Source of the DNA: a bacterium
GTDB taxonomy: Bacteria; UBA9089; CG2-30-40-21; SBAY01
Assembly: GCA_040757115.1 (NCBI GenBank)
Contig: JBFLYA010000200.1
Location: forward strand, 1 to 6,803
DNA length: 6,803 bases
Reading direction: 5' to 3'
The notes beneath the pieces were generated by a model. The model did no database searches and was not told the origin of the DNA. It was given only the letters and a program-made list of their open reading frames with translations. A program made the position numbers and the translations under genes. Below are positions 123-6,756 of this stretch, piece by piece (the first letter of the stretch is position 1; every line of letters begins with the position of its first letter).

Positions 123-140
123 AAGTTTGGCTACTAATAT

Positions 141-352
141 TTTAACCCCTAAAATAAAAAAGGGGTAAACAATCAAAATCGTCCACACGTCACGAAGTCC
201 GATAATGATAGCTACCCCTCTTGCTGTGCAAAAAACACAGCAATAATAGTAGCCTCCTTCTTAGTGACGTGTGAGAGGATAAAAATCCTCTTTTAAGAAA
301 AAAGGCTATTAGCCTCTACTAAATTTATTTTGCCCAAAAACCTATTTATCTA
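141..352 (-). ncRNA. Structured ncRNA, copy 1
   Basis: Predicted transcript of about 210 nt from the consensus promoter at 359-387. It lies in a 271-bp unit (126-396) repeated at 1588-1856. Helices in plus coordinates: HP2 274-280/285-291; P1 184-193/264-273 (10 bp); P2 210-215/249-254; P3 221-228/236-243; 3' hairpin 145-150/161-166. P1, P2 and P3 differ in sequence from copy 2, yet pairing is kept by paired substitutions, while the linkers (for example AUCAUUAUCGG and CGAUUUUGAU in the RNA) are unchanged. That pattern is expected of a selected RNA structure, not of a decaying repeat. No reading frame fits. I do not recognise it as 6S, SRP, tmRNA, RNase P or a known riboswitch. The 3' end is uncertain because no U-tract follows the last hairpin. 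Confidence 0.75.
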
Positions 353-358
353 CATTTC

Positions 359-387
359 ATTATACCAGATTACCTCCATGTTGTCAA
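359..387 (-). promoter_or_regulatory. Sigma-70 promoter of ncRNA copy 1
   Basis: On the minus strand TTGACA (387-382), a 17-base spacer and TATAAT (364-359) match the sigma-70 consensus at every position. The expected start is near 351-352. The same promoter, including the whole spacer, is present in copy 2. It begins about 55 bases downstream of the PIN gene stop, so the RNA need not depend on readthrough from that operon. Confidence 0.85.
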
Positions 388-441
388 CAAAAAATTCAGG
401 CAAAATTAGAATTTTATCTACATCCCTCCTTCAGGATAAAA

Positions 442-987
442 TTATCTGGATAATTCTCTCTGTCTCAGTTTGTGAATTTCTTGCCAGATAGTACCTTTAT
501 AGTAAGTAGAAAGGAACTGTTTTGCAGTCATTGTAAGGAAGGCATCAACCTGAAGTTTTTCGTAAATATCTCGATTATCAGATACTAAAATGTCAGCTTG
601 ACAACTTTCCGCAAAAGCAGCAATCAAAGCATCTCCCGTTTTTAGCCCTTCTTTTGAACAATATTTCTCAAATAGTTCCCTGGAGACAGTATATAAAGGG
701 CCAAATATAATTTTATGTGAAGAGCTTATGAGACGATAAAAATCTTTTGCTAAATTATCGGGTAAATTCCTTTCGACTTCATCCCGTATAATCTCGGGAA
801 CAAAAAGGCTAAAGTCCGGAATTGAGCTTATCATCTCAGGCAACATACTAATAAGATCAATAGAGTCCTTGGCTCCGGACTTTCTATTTAACCCAAATAT
901 GTATTCGTTGCTATCCAAAATAAGCCGAATACTTTTCTCGCCAGAGTTCTTCTCTTGTTTGTCTGAGCCTTTTGATAACCTTTTCAC
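442..987 (-). CDS. PIN-domain ribonuclease, VapC-like toxin
   Basis: A 181-residue protein with a PIN fold, the Mg-dependent ribonuclease domain of VapC-type toxins. The acidic metal-binding positions are visible: D25 in LILDSNEYIFG after the first beta strand, E70 in IIRDEVERN, D119 in TGDALIAAFAE, and D137 (with D140) in ILVSDNRDIY. It is longer than a typical VapC (about 130-140 residues) because of a helical stretch between the first two motifs and a 35-residue tail. The start is GTG at 987, preceded by AAAGG with a 7-base spacer. An in-frame TGA lies two codons upstream and no later ATG or GTG precedes D25, so this start is almost forced. It overlaps the upstream antitoxin-like gene by 77 bases in another frame, implying coupled translation. 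Family knowledge suggests cleavage of tRNA or rRNA, but the target cannot be read from sequence. Confidence 0.85.
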   Translation of the reverse strand: MKRLSKGSDKQEKNSGEKSIRLILDSNEYIFGLNRKSGAKDSIDLISMLPEMISSIPDFSLFVPEIIRDEVERNLPDNLAKDFYRLISSSHKIIFGPLYTVSRELFEKYCSKEGLKTGDALIAAFAESCQADILVSDNRDIYEKLQVDAFLTMTAKQFLSTYYKGTIWQEIHKLRQRELSR

Positions 988-1231
988 CTTTCAACCTTTG
1001 CATATCTTTTTCATTCATTCTGTCTCTTATCTTTTCAATTGCCTCTGCACACCTTTGACTATCTAAGGAATCTTTAGCTGGGTAGAAAACAGGGAAATAA
1101 TAAACCATTTCTCGTCTCAGTCCTTCACATATAATCTCCTCAATACTCGAAAATATCTGAGCATCTACTAACTGCTTTGAATCTTCATATAAATGCTTTG
1201 GGATATTGACTTCAATATGTTTTAAAGACAT
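911..1231 (-). CDS. Ribbon-helix-helix-like antitoxin
   Basis: A 106-residue protein (start ATG 1231) just upstream of the PIN toxin and overlapping it. The N-terminus, KHIEVNIPKHLYEDSKQLV, has the strand-helix pattern of ribbon-helix-helix (CopG/RHH) DNA-binding antitoxins, followed by a second helix (EEIICEGLRREM). The C-terminal half is charged and helical, as expected of a toxin-wrapping tail. I prefer ATG 1231 to the GTG at 1240: the purine-rich AGGGGGTG lies six bases before the ATG but abuts the GTG. Promoter, spacing and order (antitoxin first) fit a type II toxin-antitoxin operon. Likely autoregulation by operator binding is family knowledge. It is not a clear match to VapB AbrB-type antitoxins, so the pairing is called by context. 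Confidence 0.75.
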   Translation of the reverse strand: MSLKHIEVNIPKHLYEDSKQLVDAQIFSSIEEIICEGLRREMVYYFPVFYPAKDSLDSQRCAEAIEKIRDRMNEKDMQRLKGEKVIKRLRQTREELWREKYSAYFG

Positions 1232-1255
1232 TACCTTCACCCCCTGACTATGGTC

Positions 1256-1284
1256 ATTATAACATCATTAAACAAAGTTGTCAA
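1256..1284 (-). promoter_or_regulatory. Sigma-70 promoter of the toxin-antitoxin operon
   Basis: Minus-strand TTGACA (1284-1279), 17-base spacer, TATAAT (1261-1256). The start should fall near 1248-1249, giving a leader of only about 17 bases before the antitoxin ATG. A small dyad, TGAC-4-GTCA (1245-1256), overlaps the start and the edge of the -10 box and could be the operator for antitoxin autoregulation. Upstream flank 1284-1325 resembles the flank upstream of ncRNA copy 1. Confidence 0.85.
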
Positions 1285-1321
1285 TAGAAAATTAAGGATT
1301 ACGCTTAAATTAGAGTTTTAT

Positions 1322-1501
1322 CTATCTCTCTTCCCAGTTTTGAATCTTCAAATAAAAAGGGCATTTTTTACATTCTTGTAAGGTGTGGTTATGACAACAG
1401 GCTGGATTTTTTACCTCAAAACAATTCTTACTCTGCCTGTACGCCTCGCACATTAAATAGAAACTTGCAGGACAACCCTTGATATTAAAGCATTTATTCA
1501 T
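1322..1501 (-). CDS. Small cysteine-rich protein, probable metal binder
   Basis: A 59-residue ORF starting at ATG 1501 with a strong AGGAGG eight bases upstream. It has eight cysteines (C4, C10, C18, C27, C35, C36, C44, C47) and two histidines (H37, H39) arranged as CFNIKGCPASFYLMCEAY, NCFEV, a CCHNH cluster and CKKCPFY. Such spacing suggests zinc or iron-sulfur binding. I recall similar small proteins with CPASxY, NCWE-type and CC motifs in anaerobic bacteria, but know no function. No signal peptide or membrane segment is present, so it is probably cytosolic. It lies downstream of ncRNA copy 2 on the same strand (about 100 bases after its 3' hairpin) and upstream of the toxin-antitoxin promoter. 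No separate promoter is obvious, so readthrough from the ncRNA promoter is possible. Confidence 0.75.
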   Translation of the reverse strand: MNKCFNIKGCPASFYLMCEAYRQSKNCFEVKNPACCHNHTLQECKKCPFYLKIQNWEER

Positions 1502-1524
1502 TATCTCTTCCTCCTCTTTTTAAG

Positions 1525-1587
1525 TAATCGAATTAATCGAATAAAACAAATTCGTAAAAATACGAAGAATTCGTTAAATTCGTTAGA
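1525..1587. repeat. TTCG-rich AT repeat patch
   Basis: Short iterated AATCGAA, ATTCGT and GTTAAATTCGTTAG units, with a perfect 6-bp hairpin TTCGTA-AAAA-TACGAA (1551-1566). This looks like a degenerate intergenic repeat. It sits between the 3' end of ncRNA copy 2 and the ribosome binding site of the cysteine-rich gene. No coding potential. Confidence 0.45.
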
Positions 1588-1602
1588 TTTGGCTACTAAT
1601 AT

Positions 1603-1812
1603 TTTAACCCCTAAAAATAAAAAAGGGGTAAACAATCAAAATCGGCAACCCGACAGTAACACCGATAATGATCGCCACCCCTTACTACACAAAAGTGTAG
1701 TTTAAGATAGCGACCTTCTTCTTACTGTCGGGTTAGAGGATAAAATTCCTCTTTAAGAAAAAGAGCTATTAGCCTATACTAAATTTATTTTGCCCAAAAA
1801 CCTATTTATCTA
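1603..1812 (-). ncRNA. Structured ncRNA, copy 2
   Basis: Second copy of the RNA at 141-352, in the 269-bp unit 1588-1856. Helices in plus coordinates: P1 1647-1659/1722-1734 (13 bp); P2 1670-1675/1710-1715; P3 1684-1690/1695-1701 with a four-base loop; 3' hairpin 1607-1612/1624-1629; plus the hairpin AGAGGA/TCCTCT (1735-1752). Relative to copy 1 all four differing P1 positions are matched by a compensating change, and the P2 and P3 differences are likewise compensated or G-U consistent. Promoter and outer 100 bases are nearly identical. Downstream on the same strand comes the cysteine-rich small gene, so a leader or regulatory role is possible; but copy 1 precedes no visible gene, which favours a free-standing RNA. 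Confidence 0.75.
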
Positions 1813-1818
1813 TATTTT

Positions 1819-1847
1819 ATTATACCAGATTACCTCCATGTTGTCAA
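1819..1847 (-). promoter_or_regulatory. Sigma-70 promoter of ncRNA copy 2
   Basis: Minus-strand TTGACA (1847-1842), 17-base spacer, TATAAT (1824-1819), identical through the spacer to the copy 1 promoter. Expected start near 1811-1812. The similarity to copy 1 stops at 1856, nine bases upstream of the -35 box. Confidence 0.85.
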
Positions 1848-1947
1848 CAAAAAATTGGTGGTGTCTGAAAATAACTCTAATAGTGAAATCTATGCAGATT
1901 TGGTGTCCAAAAGGAATTTCCTCCAAAGAGCAAAATGCAAAACTCGT

Positions 1948-2042: not shown

Positions 2043-2094
2043 CTTTGCCAAAGTTCAGTAAAATTATCTCTTTCCTTTCAGCGTTAAAATACTT

Positions 2095-2333
2095 GTAACT
2101 GTTCAGATAGTAATTCACCGCAGAGACGCAGAGAAACAGAGAGGAAAATATCTTTTTTTTTCGTGTTTTTCGGTGTTTAAAAAAGTTTAAAAACAGTTAG
2201 GTGAAAGTAAGTATTAAAAGATTAATAAACAACGAAAGACCCGAAATGCACAAAAAAAGGAAATTTCTGTCTCTGGTGAATAGATTTTAATTTTTTCTCT
2301 GCGTCTCTGTGGCATCTTGCGGTGAACGGTTAC
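2095..2333 (+). mobile_element. Small inverted-end element with 8-bp target duplication
   Basis: A 239-bp element starting GTAACTGTTCA and ending TGAACGGTTAC. Subterminal inverted copies of CCGCAGAGACGCAGAGAAA follow each end. It is flanked on both sides by the same octamer AAATACTT (2087-2094 and 2334-2341), a typical target-site duplication, so this is a real insertion. No transposase is encoded, which makes it MITE-like. Near its right end a short frame on the plus strand (ending LVNRF then TAA at 2288-2290) resembles the C-terminus of the GxxExxY remnant at 2762-2922. A T9 run lies in its left half. Confidence 0.8.
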
Positions 2334-2341
2334 AAATACTT

Positions 2342-2508
2342 GAAGTCCTTTTTGAAATTTGATTTGTAATTTTGCATTTTGATATTTGATATTTAATATT
2401 TATTTATTGTCTCCCCAAATCCTATTTTGCAGAACCCTATACACTATTTTAACCTTTATGATAGATTAAGACACCACCCGAAAAAGCTATCATTGCCCAA
2501 AATTTTTC
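2342..2508. other. Gene-free AT-rich spacer
   Basis: Low-complexity TTTGATATTTGATATT-type sequence (2350-2407) followed by unremarkable spacer. AGACACCACCCGAAAAA (2470-2486) recurs with changes at 2995-3010 and, inverted, at 1857-1873, so it may be the end of another degenerate repeat. No ORF or RNA gene is seen before the promoter at 2509. Confidence 0.5.
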
Positions 2509-2537
2509 TTGACATCTCTTCAATCATGGGTTATAAT
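2509..2537 (+). promoter_or_regulatory. Sigma-70 promoter of the 92-nt RNA
   Basis: TTGACA (2509-2514), 17-base spacer, TATAAT (2532-2537): a full consensus promoter on the plus strand. The start is expected near 2544, directly at the base of the RNA closing helix. Confidence 0.9.
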
Positions 2538-2543
2538 TATATC

Positions 2544-2635
2544 AAAAGCGGGTAAGTCCTGCAGCGTACCGTGATGTTTCCTGCTGTAAGGTGGGTTAAG
2601 TCACGGAAGTATATGCTGTAGGGACCGCTTTTTTT
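2544..2635 (+). ncRNA. Compact structured ncRNA, about 92 nt
   Basis: The region runs from a perfect promoter to a U7 tract and folds as a rod. Closing helix AAAGCGG/CCGCTTT (2545-2551/2625-2631); GTCC plus TGCAGC against GCTGTA plus GGAC with one bulged G (2556-2565/2614-2624); CCGTGA/TCACGG (2569-2574/2601-2606); an apical region with CCT/AGG and the conserved-looking GGGTTAAG. No ORF fits. Size and rod shape resemble small SRP RNA, but the SRP signature (GUCAGG, GGAA tetraloop, AGCAG) is absent, and it is too short for 6S. I do not recognise the family. It lies between repeat elements and is intact, consistent with a free-standing housekeeping or regulatory RNA. Confidence 0.8.
2625..2635 (+). 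terminator. Intrinsic terminator of the 92-nt RNA
   Basis: The 3' arm CCGC of the closing helix runs directly into seven T residues (2629-2635). The partner arm is 2545-2551, so the terminator stem is the base of the RNA itself, with the whole rod as its loop. Confidence 0.8.
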
Positions 2636-2720
2636 ATTAATATAATTTCTTTTCAATAGTTATCTTTTCTTTAATCAAGTCATAAAACCTTGAATCTTTC
2701 CACTCATAGTTTCGAAATAT

Positions 2721-2974
2721 GTAACCGTTCACCGCAGAGACACAGAGACGCAGAGAAAAAATTAAAAACTATTTACCAGACGCAGAATTCCATCACGGAT
2801 TTTCATCAGTGCAAGCTTTTGAGGACCGACATATCATGATTGATTAACAAATTTGGTTTTGATGTCCTATGTAGGACAATGATTGCATCAATAATCTTTT
2901 CTGTTATCTGATTTATTTCCATGTCTTCTCTGTTCCTCTGCGTCTCTGCGGTGAATTACCACCTGAACGGTTAC
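2721..2974 (-). mobile_element. Inverted-end element carrying a GxxExxY remnant
   Basis: 254 bp with inverted ends GTAACCGTTCA (2721-2731) and TGAACGGTTAC (2964-2974), then inverted CCGCAGAGACGCAGAG-type segments. The left end, including the AAAAAATTAAAA stretch after it, matches the inverted right end of the element at 2095-2333; the right end matches the element ending at 3178. The interior holds a broken GxxExxY gene (2762-2922). No clear target duplication is visible (CGAAATAT against AAAAAATT), so the insertion is older or rearranged. Confidence 0.7.
2762..2922 (-). pseudogene. GxxExxY protein gene, deleted and frameshifted
   Basis: From ATG 2922 the frame reads MEINQITEKIIDAIIVLHR, very like the start of GxxExxY-family proteins (a PD-(D/E)XK-like family of about 125 residues). 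It then jumps to PNLLINHDMSVLK, which resembles the family C-terminal region, and stops at TGA 2806 after 38 codons. In the shifted frame the sequence continues RDGILRLVNSF and ends at TAA 2762-2764, matching the family C-terminus. So the middle of the gene, with its core motif, is deleted and one frameshift follows. It lies wholly inside the inverted-end element, suggesting these elements once mobilised, or were built around, this gene. Recognition is from memory of the family. Confidence 0.65.
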
Positions 2975-3073
2975 AAAAAATTGTAGTTATTGTCAGACAC
3001 TACCGAAAATTACAAGACATTAAATTCCATTTCGTGTCCTTCGTGCTCTTCGTGGTGAATAGTTACCTTTTGA

Positions 3074-3178
3074 CTAACTGTTTTTAAGCCTTTTTAAACA
3101 CCGAAAAACGCAAAAAAAAAGATATTTTCCTCTCTGTTTCTCTGCGTCTCTGCGGTAAATTACCACCTGAACAGTTAC
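3074..3178 (-). repeat. Half element, inverted copy of 2095-2200
   Basis: The reverse complement of this 105-bp stretch matches 2095-2200 with few differences: GTAACTGTTCA end, CCGCAGAGACGCAGAGAAAC, then a T9 run and CGGTGTTTAAAAA. The other end of the element is not found; similarity stops at the AACAGTTAG shared by both, next to a CACGAAG-type repeat (3030-3056). The GTAAC end lies six bases beyond the stop codon of the DUF342 gene, so it probably inserted there or replaced that gene's terminator region. Confidence 0.75.
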
Positions 3179-3184
3179 AGCTTT

Positions 3185-4792
3185 TTATTTAGCTGACCCA
3201 ATTCGATATGTAATTTGAGCCTTTTGAGACATAGGTGGTAAAATAGCCTCTGCAACAAGGATAGGTTTTTCAAATTGTTTATTTTTAAAAGCGGCAACAA
3301 TAACATCTTCTTTAATTCCAACCATAACACCTTTTCGTTTTAAGGCAGAGAGGACATCTTCTGGACCAAGCATTAAATTACCCTTTTGGGGAGGAATTAT
3401 CGTAAAATAAGCCTTAAGTTTATCTTCTGATATATCAATTTTAACTTTTCCACCTATTTCTTGAGTAAGTTGCATAATACCAATTTTAACGGTTGTAGGA
3501 ACATTTGTCTTACAGGCAGCTATTATTTTAGAAGAATCGATTCCAATAAAACCTTGTTGTTGTGCGGCAAGGATAATATTTTCCGGGCTCACCTTTTTCC
3601 CTGAGCCACTTGAAGAAATAATGTGGAGATATAAACCATCTTCGCGGTTTTCGAATTTAAAATTCCCATCTACTGGAGGACCATCTATATTATTTATCTC
3701 ATTCCATTCTTTTTTCCAATGTTCAGAGGCACCTTGAGGAAATATTCGCAATATAGGTCGGTTAGAATATTCATTAGAAATTATTTCTCCATCTAACCCT
3801 TCAGCCGGCAAACCTAATAATTCAGCACCTTTTCTTTTTCCTTCTTCTAAAGATGCCGCCTGCACGATTACTGATGGTGAGAATTGAGGATGTTTAACCT
3901 TTTGTTTATGAGTATCTTCTTGAGAGGCAGAGTGGGTAAACTCGATTTTAGGTTCTTGATATTCAGTGGTTGTCATTCCGGATAGTTCTGCTTTAATCGT
4001 CAGGCGTTTCAATTTCCGTTTGGGAATCATTGTTCTTCTTCCCAATATCATTTTTACTTTGGGATAAAGTATTCCGTGGATTGAGATATTTCCGCCTTGC
4101 TGTATCTTTACTTCGGTTTGTATAGAGGTGCGTTCACTGCCAATGGTCATAGCGTTTATTTCTTTTTTGGCACAAACAACGCCACCAGCAATTATTCCTT
4201 TTCTCCCAGAACAAATTACCCTTTCTCCATTTACTTTACACCCAAGTAATGCCCCTTCTATTAAAATATAGCCTTTTGCCTCTAATGATGATTCTTTAGC
4301 CGAGCAAGATTTAATATTCTCTTGTGCAATTATAGTTGCATTTCTAACTTCTTGTTTTATTTCTACGGTTCCACCTGAATCTATTTCAGCATCTGCTACA
4401 GAGCCCGCGATACTAACATCGGCGGTAGCGTGTATTTTAAATTTCCCCTCCACACTGCCTGAAACTTTCACCTCGCCATCAAAGTCAATATTCTCCTCTA
4501 CATCTTTAGTTATTTGAAGCACTCTTTGGACATCTACGCGGTTTCCCTGCCACCTGATTTTTCCAAAAGAGGCGGAGTAAATCCGCAACCCATCTTCAGA
4601 GGCATAAACATTCATTCCTAAAATAACAGGAATATCCTCTCCCAGCTGAGGTAATAATTCTTCGCCGGTAACCGTTAATCCTGGTTTACCGAGGGCAGGT
4701 GGTTTTTTTACGGCTAATAATTGTCCCGGGATAGCATCATCCCCTAATGCTTCTATCTCCCAGGCCAGGTGAGTATCAACTTGTTCTTCCAT
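3185..4792 (-). CDS. DUF342/FapA-family protein, permuted domain order
   Basis: A 535-residue soluble protein of the FapA (flagellar assembly protein A, DUF342) family. Residues about 20-95 (GQLLAVKKPPALGKPGLTV onward) are the family's entry into the beta-helix. Residues 95-250 are the right-handed beta-helix with short repeated strands (NIDFDGEVKVSGSVEGKF, ADVSIAGSV, GYILIEGALL, GGNISIHG). Residues 240-275 match the usual end of that domain. Then come parts that normally stand first: a Jag_N-like segment (308-339, VIVQAASLEEGKRKGAELLG), a linker domain (395-430) and a FapA N-terminal-like domain (447-532, KIDISEDKLKAYFTIIPP to QITYRI). The order is therefore circularly permuted. The usual C-terminal coiled coil is missing. 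ATG 4792 directly follows the TAA of the upstream gene in the same frame, without a good ribosome site of its own, so translation is probably coupled. Role: family link to flagellar or envelope assembly; exact function unknown. Confidence 0.8.
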   Translation of the reverse strand: MEEQVDTHLAWEIEALGDDAIPGQLLAVKKPPALGKPGLTVTGEELLPQLGEDIPVILGMNVYASEDGLRIYSASFGKIRWQGNRVDVQRVLQITKDVEENIDFDGEVKVSGSVEGKFKIHATADVSIAGSVADAEIDSGGTVEIKQEVRNATIIAQENIKSCSAKESSLEAKGYILIEGALLGCKVNGERVICSGRKGIIAGGVVCAKKEINAMTIGSERTSIQTEVKIQQGGNISIHGILYPKVKMILGRRTMIPKRKLKRLTIKAELSGMTTTEYQEPKIEFTHSASQEDTHKQKVKHPQFSPSVIVQAASLEEGKRKGAELLGLPAEGLDGEIISNEYSNRPILRIFPQGASEHWKKEWNEINNIDGPPVDGNFKFENREDGLYLHIISSSGSGKKVSPENIILAAQQQGFIGIDSSKIIAACKTNVPTTVKIGIMQLTQEIGGKVKIDISEDKLKAYFTIIPPQKGNLMLGPEDVLSALKRKGVMVGIKEDVIVAAFKNKQFEKPILVAEAILPPMSQKAQITYRIGSAK

Positions 4793-6607: not shown

Positions 6608-6636
6608 TTGACAATTCTCTAAATATAGGATAAAAT
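6608..6636 (+). promoter_or_regulatory. Sigma-70 promoter, divergent from dehydrogenase
   Basis: TTGACA (6608-6613), 17-base spacer, TAAAAT (6631-6636; one mismatch to TATAAT). The start is expected near 6643, about 20 bases before the ATG of the small ORF at 6664. Confidence 0.7.
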
Positions 6637-6663
6637 ATACCTCCAGGACGAGGAGAAACGCTC

Positions 6664-6756
6664 ATGCCCACAGGGATGGACACAAAGTCTTATGGTGAAA
6701 TGTCAAGTAAAAAATTAAGTTTTTTTAAAAATATTTTTCTTGACTTATATCCCTAA
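6664..6756 (+). CDS. Possible 30-residue leader peptide or broken gene start
   Basis: ATG 6664 has a strong GAGGAG eight bases upstream (6650-6655) and the promoter at 6608-6636. The frame encodes 30 residues starting MPTGMDTKSYGEMSSKK and stops at TAA 6754-6756. The peptide ends in a hydrophobic run (FFKNIFLDLY) and matches nothing I know. It may be a leader peptide, the 5' end of a gene broken by frameshift, or a transcript acting as RNA: the leader can form CCTC-CAGGAC-GAGG, placing GGA in a loop. The window ends 47 bases later, so what follows is unseen. Confidence 0.4.
   Translation: MPTGMDTKSYGEMSSKKLSFFKNIFLDLYP

Follow-up and report, generated by a model that had tools for sequence, protein, structure and literature searches.

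Several described bacterial RNAs resemble the RNA reported here, which is encoded twice (copies A and B) in a 6,803-nt stretch of bacterial DNA (the window). The DUF3800-associated RNAs, noncoding RNA candidates from comparative genomics, are likewise intergenic and structured, have a strong promoter of their own, and are of unknown function. Compared with DUF3800-V (RF02964), the paired RNA is longer (about 230 nt versus 96 positions), occurs as two copies with a variable core, and is known from one contig. A DUF3800-V RNA is itself present in the window at 2541-2634 on the plus strand (54.5 bits; cut-off 37.4), with a perfect TTGACA-17-TATAAT promoter at 2509-2537 directly upstream; none of the window ORFs that were scanned is a DUF3800 gene. 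6S RNA has two paralogues in some Bacillota, as there are two copies here, and the resemblance to it is only in how the RNA might work: a conserved asymmetric bubble set between helices whose sequence is free, and a strong promoter. However, 6S RNA is a rod along its whole length, whereas the bubble of the paired RNA lies in a 90-nt hairpin of a multi-hairpin RNA; no match to 6S RNA was found even at E-values up to 10, and the folds do not form an RNA-long rod. Retron msr-msd RNA is similar in having two short hairpins followed by a long one and ends that can pair, but the window has no reverse transcriptase, the closing stem of the paired RNA is only 5 bp, and there is no match in Rfam to such families.

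The two units are on the minus strand at 396-126 and 1856-1588, about 270 nt each, in direct orientation and 1.46 kb apart, as a preliminary description made from the sequence alone had placed them. Their edges are abrupt, with AATTTTTTG at the promoter end and GTAGCCAAA at the 3' end; each starts with AATTTTTTGTTGACA-N17-TATAAT, the flanks are unrelated past the 3' end ...TTAGTAGCCAAA, and homology stops where promoter and RNA stop. The promoters had been called perfect, and both do have TTGACA-17-TATAAT with a TG before the second hexamer (extended -10, sigma-70), with 38 of 38 bases identical between copies, both hexamers, the TG, and the 17-nt spacer among them. Equally perfect promoters precede the antitoxin-like ORF between the copies (Table 1) and the plus-strand DUF3800-V RNA. 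Because other genes in the window have them too, these promoters are no evidence for anything special about the paired RNA; they are not specific to it and look like the ordinary strong promoter of this genome. A region at 6608-6735 on the plus strand has a near-perfect promoter (TTGACA-17-TAAAAT) before about 70 nt that contain no ORF of at least 60 aa; this stretch folds no more stably than its shuffled versions (z 0.72) and has no Rfam match above cut-off.

The predicted 5' end of the copy A RNA (about 357-352) follows from the promoter, and the predicted 3' end from where homology stops, at GTAGCCAAA. No intrinsic terminator was found at the RNA 3' end. There is no ORF of at least 60 aa within the copy A unit, and copy B is overlapped by one plus-strand frame with no Pfam match. 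The 5' leader is the same in both copies at 24 of 25 columns and the 3' domain at 57 of 59, and the differences between copies are concentrated in a central hairpin of about 90 nt.

Table 1. Features of the two RNA units and of the ORFs between them (window positions).
Feature	Position	Strand	Details
Copy A promoter	359..396	-	AT-rich upstream block, TTGACA 387-382, 17-nt spacer, extended TATAAT 364-359
Copy A structured RNA	126..357	-	MFE z-score -6.1
Copy A hairpin H2 (AGAGGA/UCCUCU)	274..291	-	pairing columns invariant
Copy A core hairpin	184..273	-	P1 273-264/193-184, P2 253-248/216-211, P3 242-236/228-222
Copy A 3' domain	126..183	-	ACCCC/GGGGU hairpin; GCCAAA end can pair with 5' UUUGG
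Copy B promoter	1819..1856	-	TTGACA 1847-1842, 17-nt spacer, extended TATAAT 1824-1819
Copy B structured RNA	1588..1817	-	MFE z-score -6.2
Copy B core hairpin	1647..1734	-	P1 1734-1725/1656-1647, P3 1701-1695/1690-1684; P2 extended, register shifted
59-aa Cys-rich ORF	1322..1501	-	Shine-Dalgarno-like sequence; ATG about 87 nt after copy B end; no Pfam match
109-aa antitoxin-like ORF	911..1240	-	between RNA copies; own perfect promoter 1284-1256; no Pfam family
181-aa PIN-domain ORF, toxin-like	442..987	-	PF01850, 23.7 bits, just over cut-off; overlaps 109-aa ORF

The core hairpin has three helices, P1 to P3, and in copy A an asymmetric internal loop with the conserved strands UAAGAAG (263-257) and AUCAUUAUCGG (209-199), both kept in the copy B hairpin. 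In P1, the four paired substitutions reported earlier are all present (C-G to A-U, A-U to C-G, U-A to A-U, and C-G to G-C), and the other six of the ten pairs are unchanged. P3, said to keep its stem with mostly different sequence, does so to the full extent: with the register set by hand, the automatic alignment being off by two columns there, each copy has 7 bp, and all seven pairs are changed and all seven kept. The claim for P2 stands in part, since compensation is present, but in the register shared by the copies it amounts to a single full compensation and two further changes that are G-U-consistent, where three and two had been counted. A 12-bp P2 about 3 nt out of the shared register improves the fold of copy B by about 10 kcal/mol, and because copy B prefers this shifted register, P2 exists in both copies but its individual pairs are not cleanly homologous. 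When equal numbers of substitutions are scattered randomly over both arms, the chance of keeping all ten P1 pairs is p = 4.3e-4, and under the random-substitution null the values are p = 3.4e-3 for P3 and p = 0.011 for P2 in the shared register, all somewhat optimistic in being conditional on helices picked from the folds themselves. No double-sided changes remain when the pairing is slid by 1-3 columns; with two sequences, the shuffle control of the covariation tool is of low power (15/500). Of 50 paired columns in the core, 26 differ between the copies, compared with 5 of 23 in the internal loop (Fisher p = 0.02, on columns counted by hand). Relative to shuffled sequence, the RNAs as a whole have MFE z-scores of -6.1 and -6.2, and their core hairpins reach -7.3 and -7.7.

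The strand is indicated in three ways. Folding is more stable on the minus strand, at -39.5 and -45.4 kcal/mol, than on the plus strand, at -30.2 and -31.1 kcal/mol, the one-sided changes give G-U on the minus strand and would give A-C on the plus strand, and the consensus promoters of both units face in the minus-strand direction. Compensatory change of the kind looked for in a stand-alone structured noncoding RNA is present in P1 and P3, though only between two paralogues. Selection on RNA structure, put forward in the preliminary description for all three helices, is in terms of a predicted folded minus-strand transcript well supported for P1 and P3, where there is compensation, and only weakly supported for P2.

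Outside the core, there is no variation between the copies in H2, in the 3' hairpin, or in the closing stem (UUUGG/CCAAA), and hence no covariation signal. Hairpin H1 is poorly kept in copy B, with a shortened stem and one pair that is now G-U. But for two U-U mismatches, AUCAUUAUCGG is complementary to CGAUUUUGAU downstream of it (172-209 and 1635-1672, minus strand); copy B has the better match of the two copies, and the pairing might give an alternative fold that excludes P1. A long-range helix between them alongside P1 was rejected, the linker being too short for a pseudoknot, which leaves only the alternative fold.

All three ORFs between the copies are on the same strand as the RNA, and the 109-aa ORF is termed antitoxin-like only from its position before the PIN gene. 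No genes for reverse transcriptase, TnpB, IscB, Cas, or recombinase are present among the ORFs scanned in the 6.8-kb window. Elsewhere in the window, inverted and direct repeats of the TTCACCGCAGAGACGCAGAG and CACCACCTGAACGGTTACA type are clustered at 2087-3186 and resemble miniature mobile or dispersed repeats, and ATAGTTT/ATAGTGT heptamers at 1946-2042, tandem and inverted, could form a long AT-rich hairpin.

The statement that the RNA belongs to no known family holds for Rfam 15: with both copies searched on both strands at E-values up to 5-10, all scores were far below the gathering cut-offs, with best E-values of 2.3 and 0.56 in the two regions. An exact 22-base gapped pattern (conserved loop plus linker) found no plausible homologue in the 84,980 species genomes of GTDB r220; its matches in a coding-looking stretch and in another AT-rich sequence were rejected, as both lacked the remaining conserved elements and gave no match to a covariance model built from the two copies. 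The same model found nothing in 299 + 299 genomes of two phyla, these 598 representing the phyla of the two chance-match genomes and probably not the phylum of the host. In IMG/VR viral contigs, five patterns gave chance matches or nothing, as judged by sequence, fold, or covariance model. One viral-contig match of 18.3 bits was rejected, reading as protein-coding and aligning only with most of the core deleted, so that E-values near 1e-3 from this two-sequence model cannot be trusted. DNA searches of 101 relatives of an Ezakiella genome gave only chance matches of 20-26 bases, those of plasmids and phages gave nothing, and a plasmid search with the PIN and antitoxin-like proteins gave no useful neighbour. 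No description of such an RNA was found in the literature. Further homologues with covarying helices, which the preliminary description had proposed to look for, were therefore not found in anything searched, but this is weak evidence of absence because the searched phyla probably exclude that of the host. The candidate family as defined by sequence is two paralogues, both on one contig, and the findings suggest a real RNA family that is absent from Rfam 15.

The RNA structure is well supported, while for the mechanism we only infer. In the preferred reading, held tentatively and at a little under even confidence, the units are paired stand-alone genes for an RNA of about 230 nt, with the conserved internal loop as a putative protein-binding site and a scaffold or decoy role for the molecule. 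The two paralogous genes would produce the structured RNA from the minus strand through identical strong sigma-70 promoters, and the RNA would be abundant and act in trans. The molecule is probably closed by pairing of its 5' UUUGG with its 3' CCAAA. The strands UAAGAAG and AUCAUUAUCGG, opposite each other between helices of free sequence and accompanied by constant 5' and 3' domains, would bind a protein partner, and the RNA would be the scaffold or decoy of a ribonucleoprotein. Because the loop is kept while the surrounding helices are replaced, it looks like a binding site held in place by helices whose sequence is free, most simply one for a protein.

The conserved unpaired strands could also be read as belonging to a base-pairing, trans-acting small RNA, with UAAGAAG, AUCAUUAUCGG, or the conserved CGAUUUUGAUUGUUUA segment as mRNA seeds that the helices merely present. 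The strong promoter and the two sibling copies would suit such an RNA, but two of the strands are inside the internal loop of a very stable hairpin and the terminator-type U-tail of Hfq-type small RNAs is missing, and this explanation is considered unlikely. A cis-acting leader (riboswitch or attenuator), with copy B serving the Cys-rich ORF as its 5' leader and H1 with its U-run acting as an early terminator, accounts for the nearness of that ATG to the end of copy B and for the terminator-like score of H1 plus U-run in copy A. It is improbable, as the 125 nt of the window left after copy A contain no such ORF, the degraded H1 of copy B does not score as a terminator, and no Rfam riboswitch matches above cut-off.

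Mobile or recombining DNA might also be involved. Two small hairpins followed by a long one, complementary ends, and sharp unit edges, with transcription that would run past such an edge into unrelated flanks, might be expected if the units were the RNA component of a retron-like or OMEGA-like (TnpB/IscB) element or were non-autonomous mobile copies of such an element. Against this, the edges are without terminal inverted repeats or target duplications (judged by eye), the closing pairing is short, as noted above, and Rfam gives no match to such families, including the HEARO and RAGATH-18 type models; there is little likelihood that the units are of this kind. Compensatory change alone cannot tell RNA from DNA, and two direct copies flank the PIN/antitoxin-like pair, so that a hairpin selected as single-stranded DNA, for example a recombination site flanking a toxin-antitoxin-like cassette, was considered as well. 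The G-U consistency and better energies of the minus strand and the consensus promoter of each unit argue against it, and it is very improbable. Because none of the genes sought for retron, OMEGA, or cassette readings are among the scanned ORFs, all three are without protein support in the window.

For stand-alone RNA genes with a protein-binding loop, it is awkward that the promoter spacer, usually free to change, is identical between copies while the core helices are heavily changed. The outer parts may have been kept by recent duplication or gene conversion and not by RNA function; alternatively, the core may be diverging faster than neutral sequence, or the spacer may itself be a binding site. 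A broader proposal, more tentative still than the protein-binding reading, is that this is a new abundant RNA family whose scaffold and promoter stay constant while the core hairpin changes quickly and its internal loop is fixed, and in which siblings would have the same shape with diverged helices and perhaps stay orthogonal. On present evidence the RNA pair is new as a family and ordinary in kind. If homologues exist, it would be a further unassigned class of structured RNA from an uncultured lineage, with a covariance signal already at hand; with its outer parts frozen, promoter spacer included, and compensation in the core, it would serve as a test case for the divergence of duplicated RNAs.
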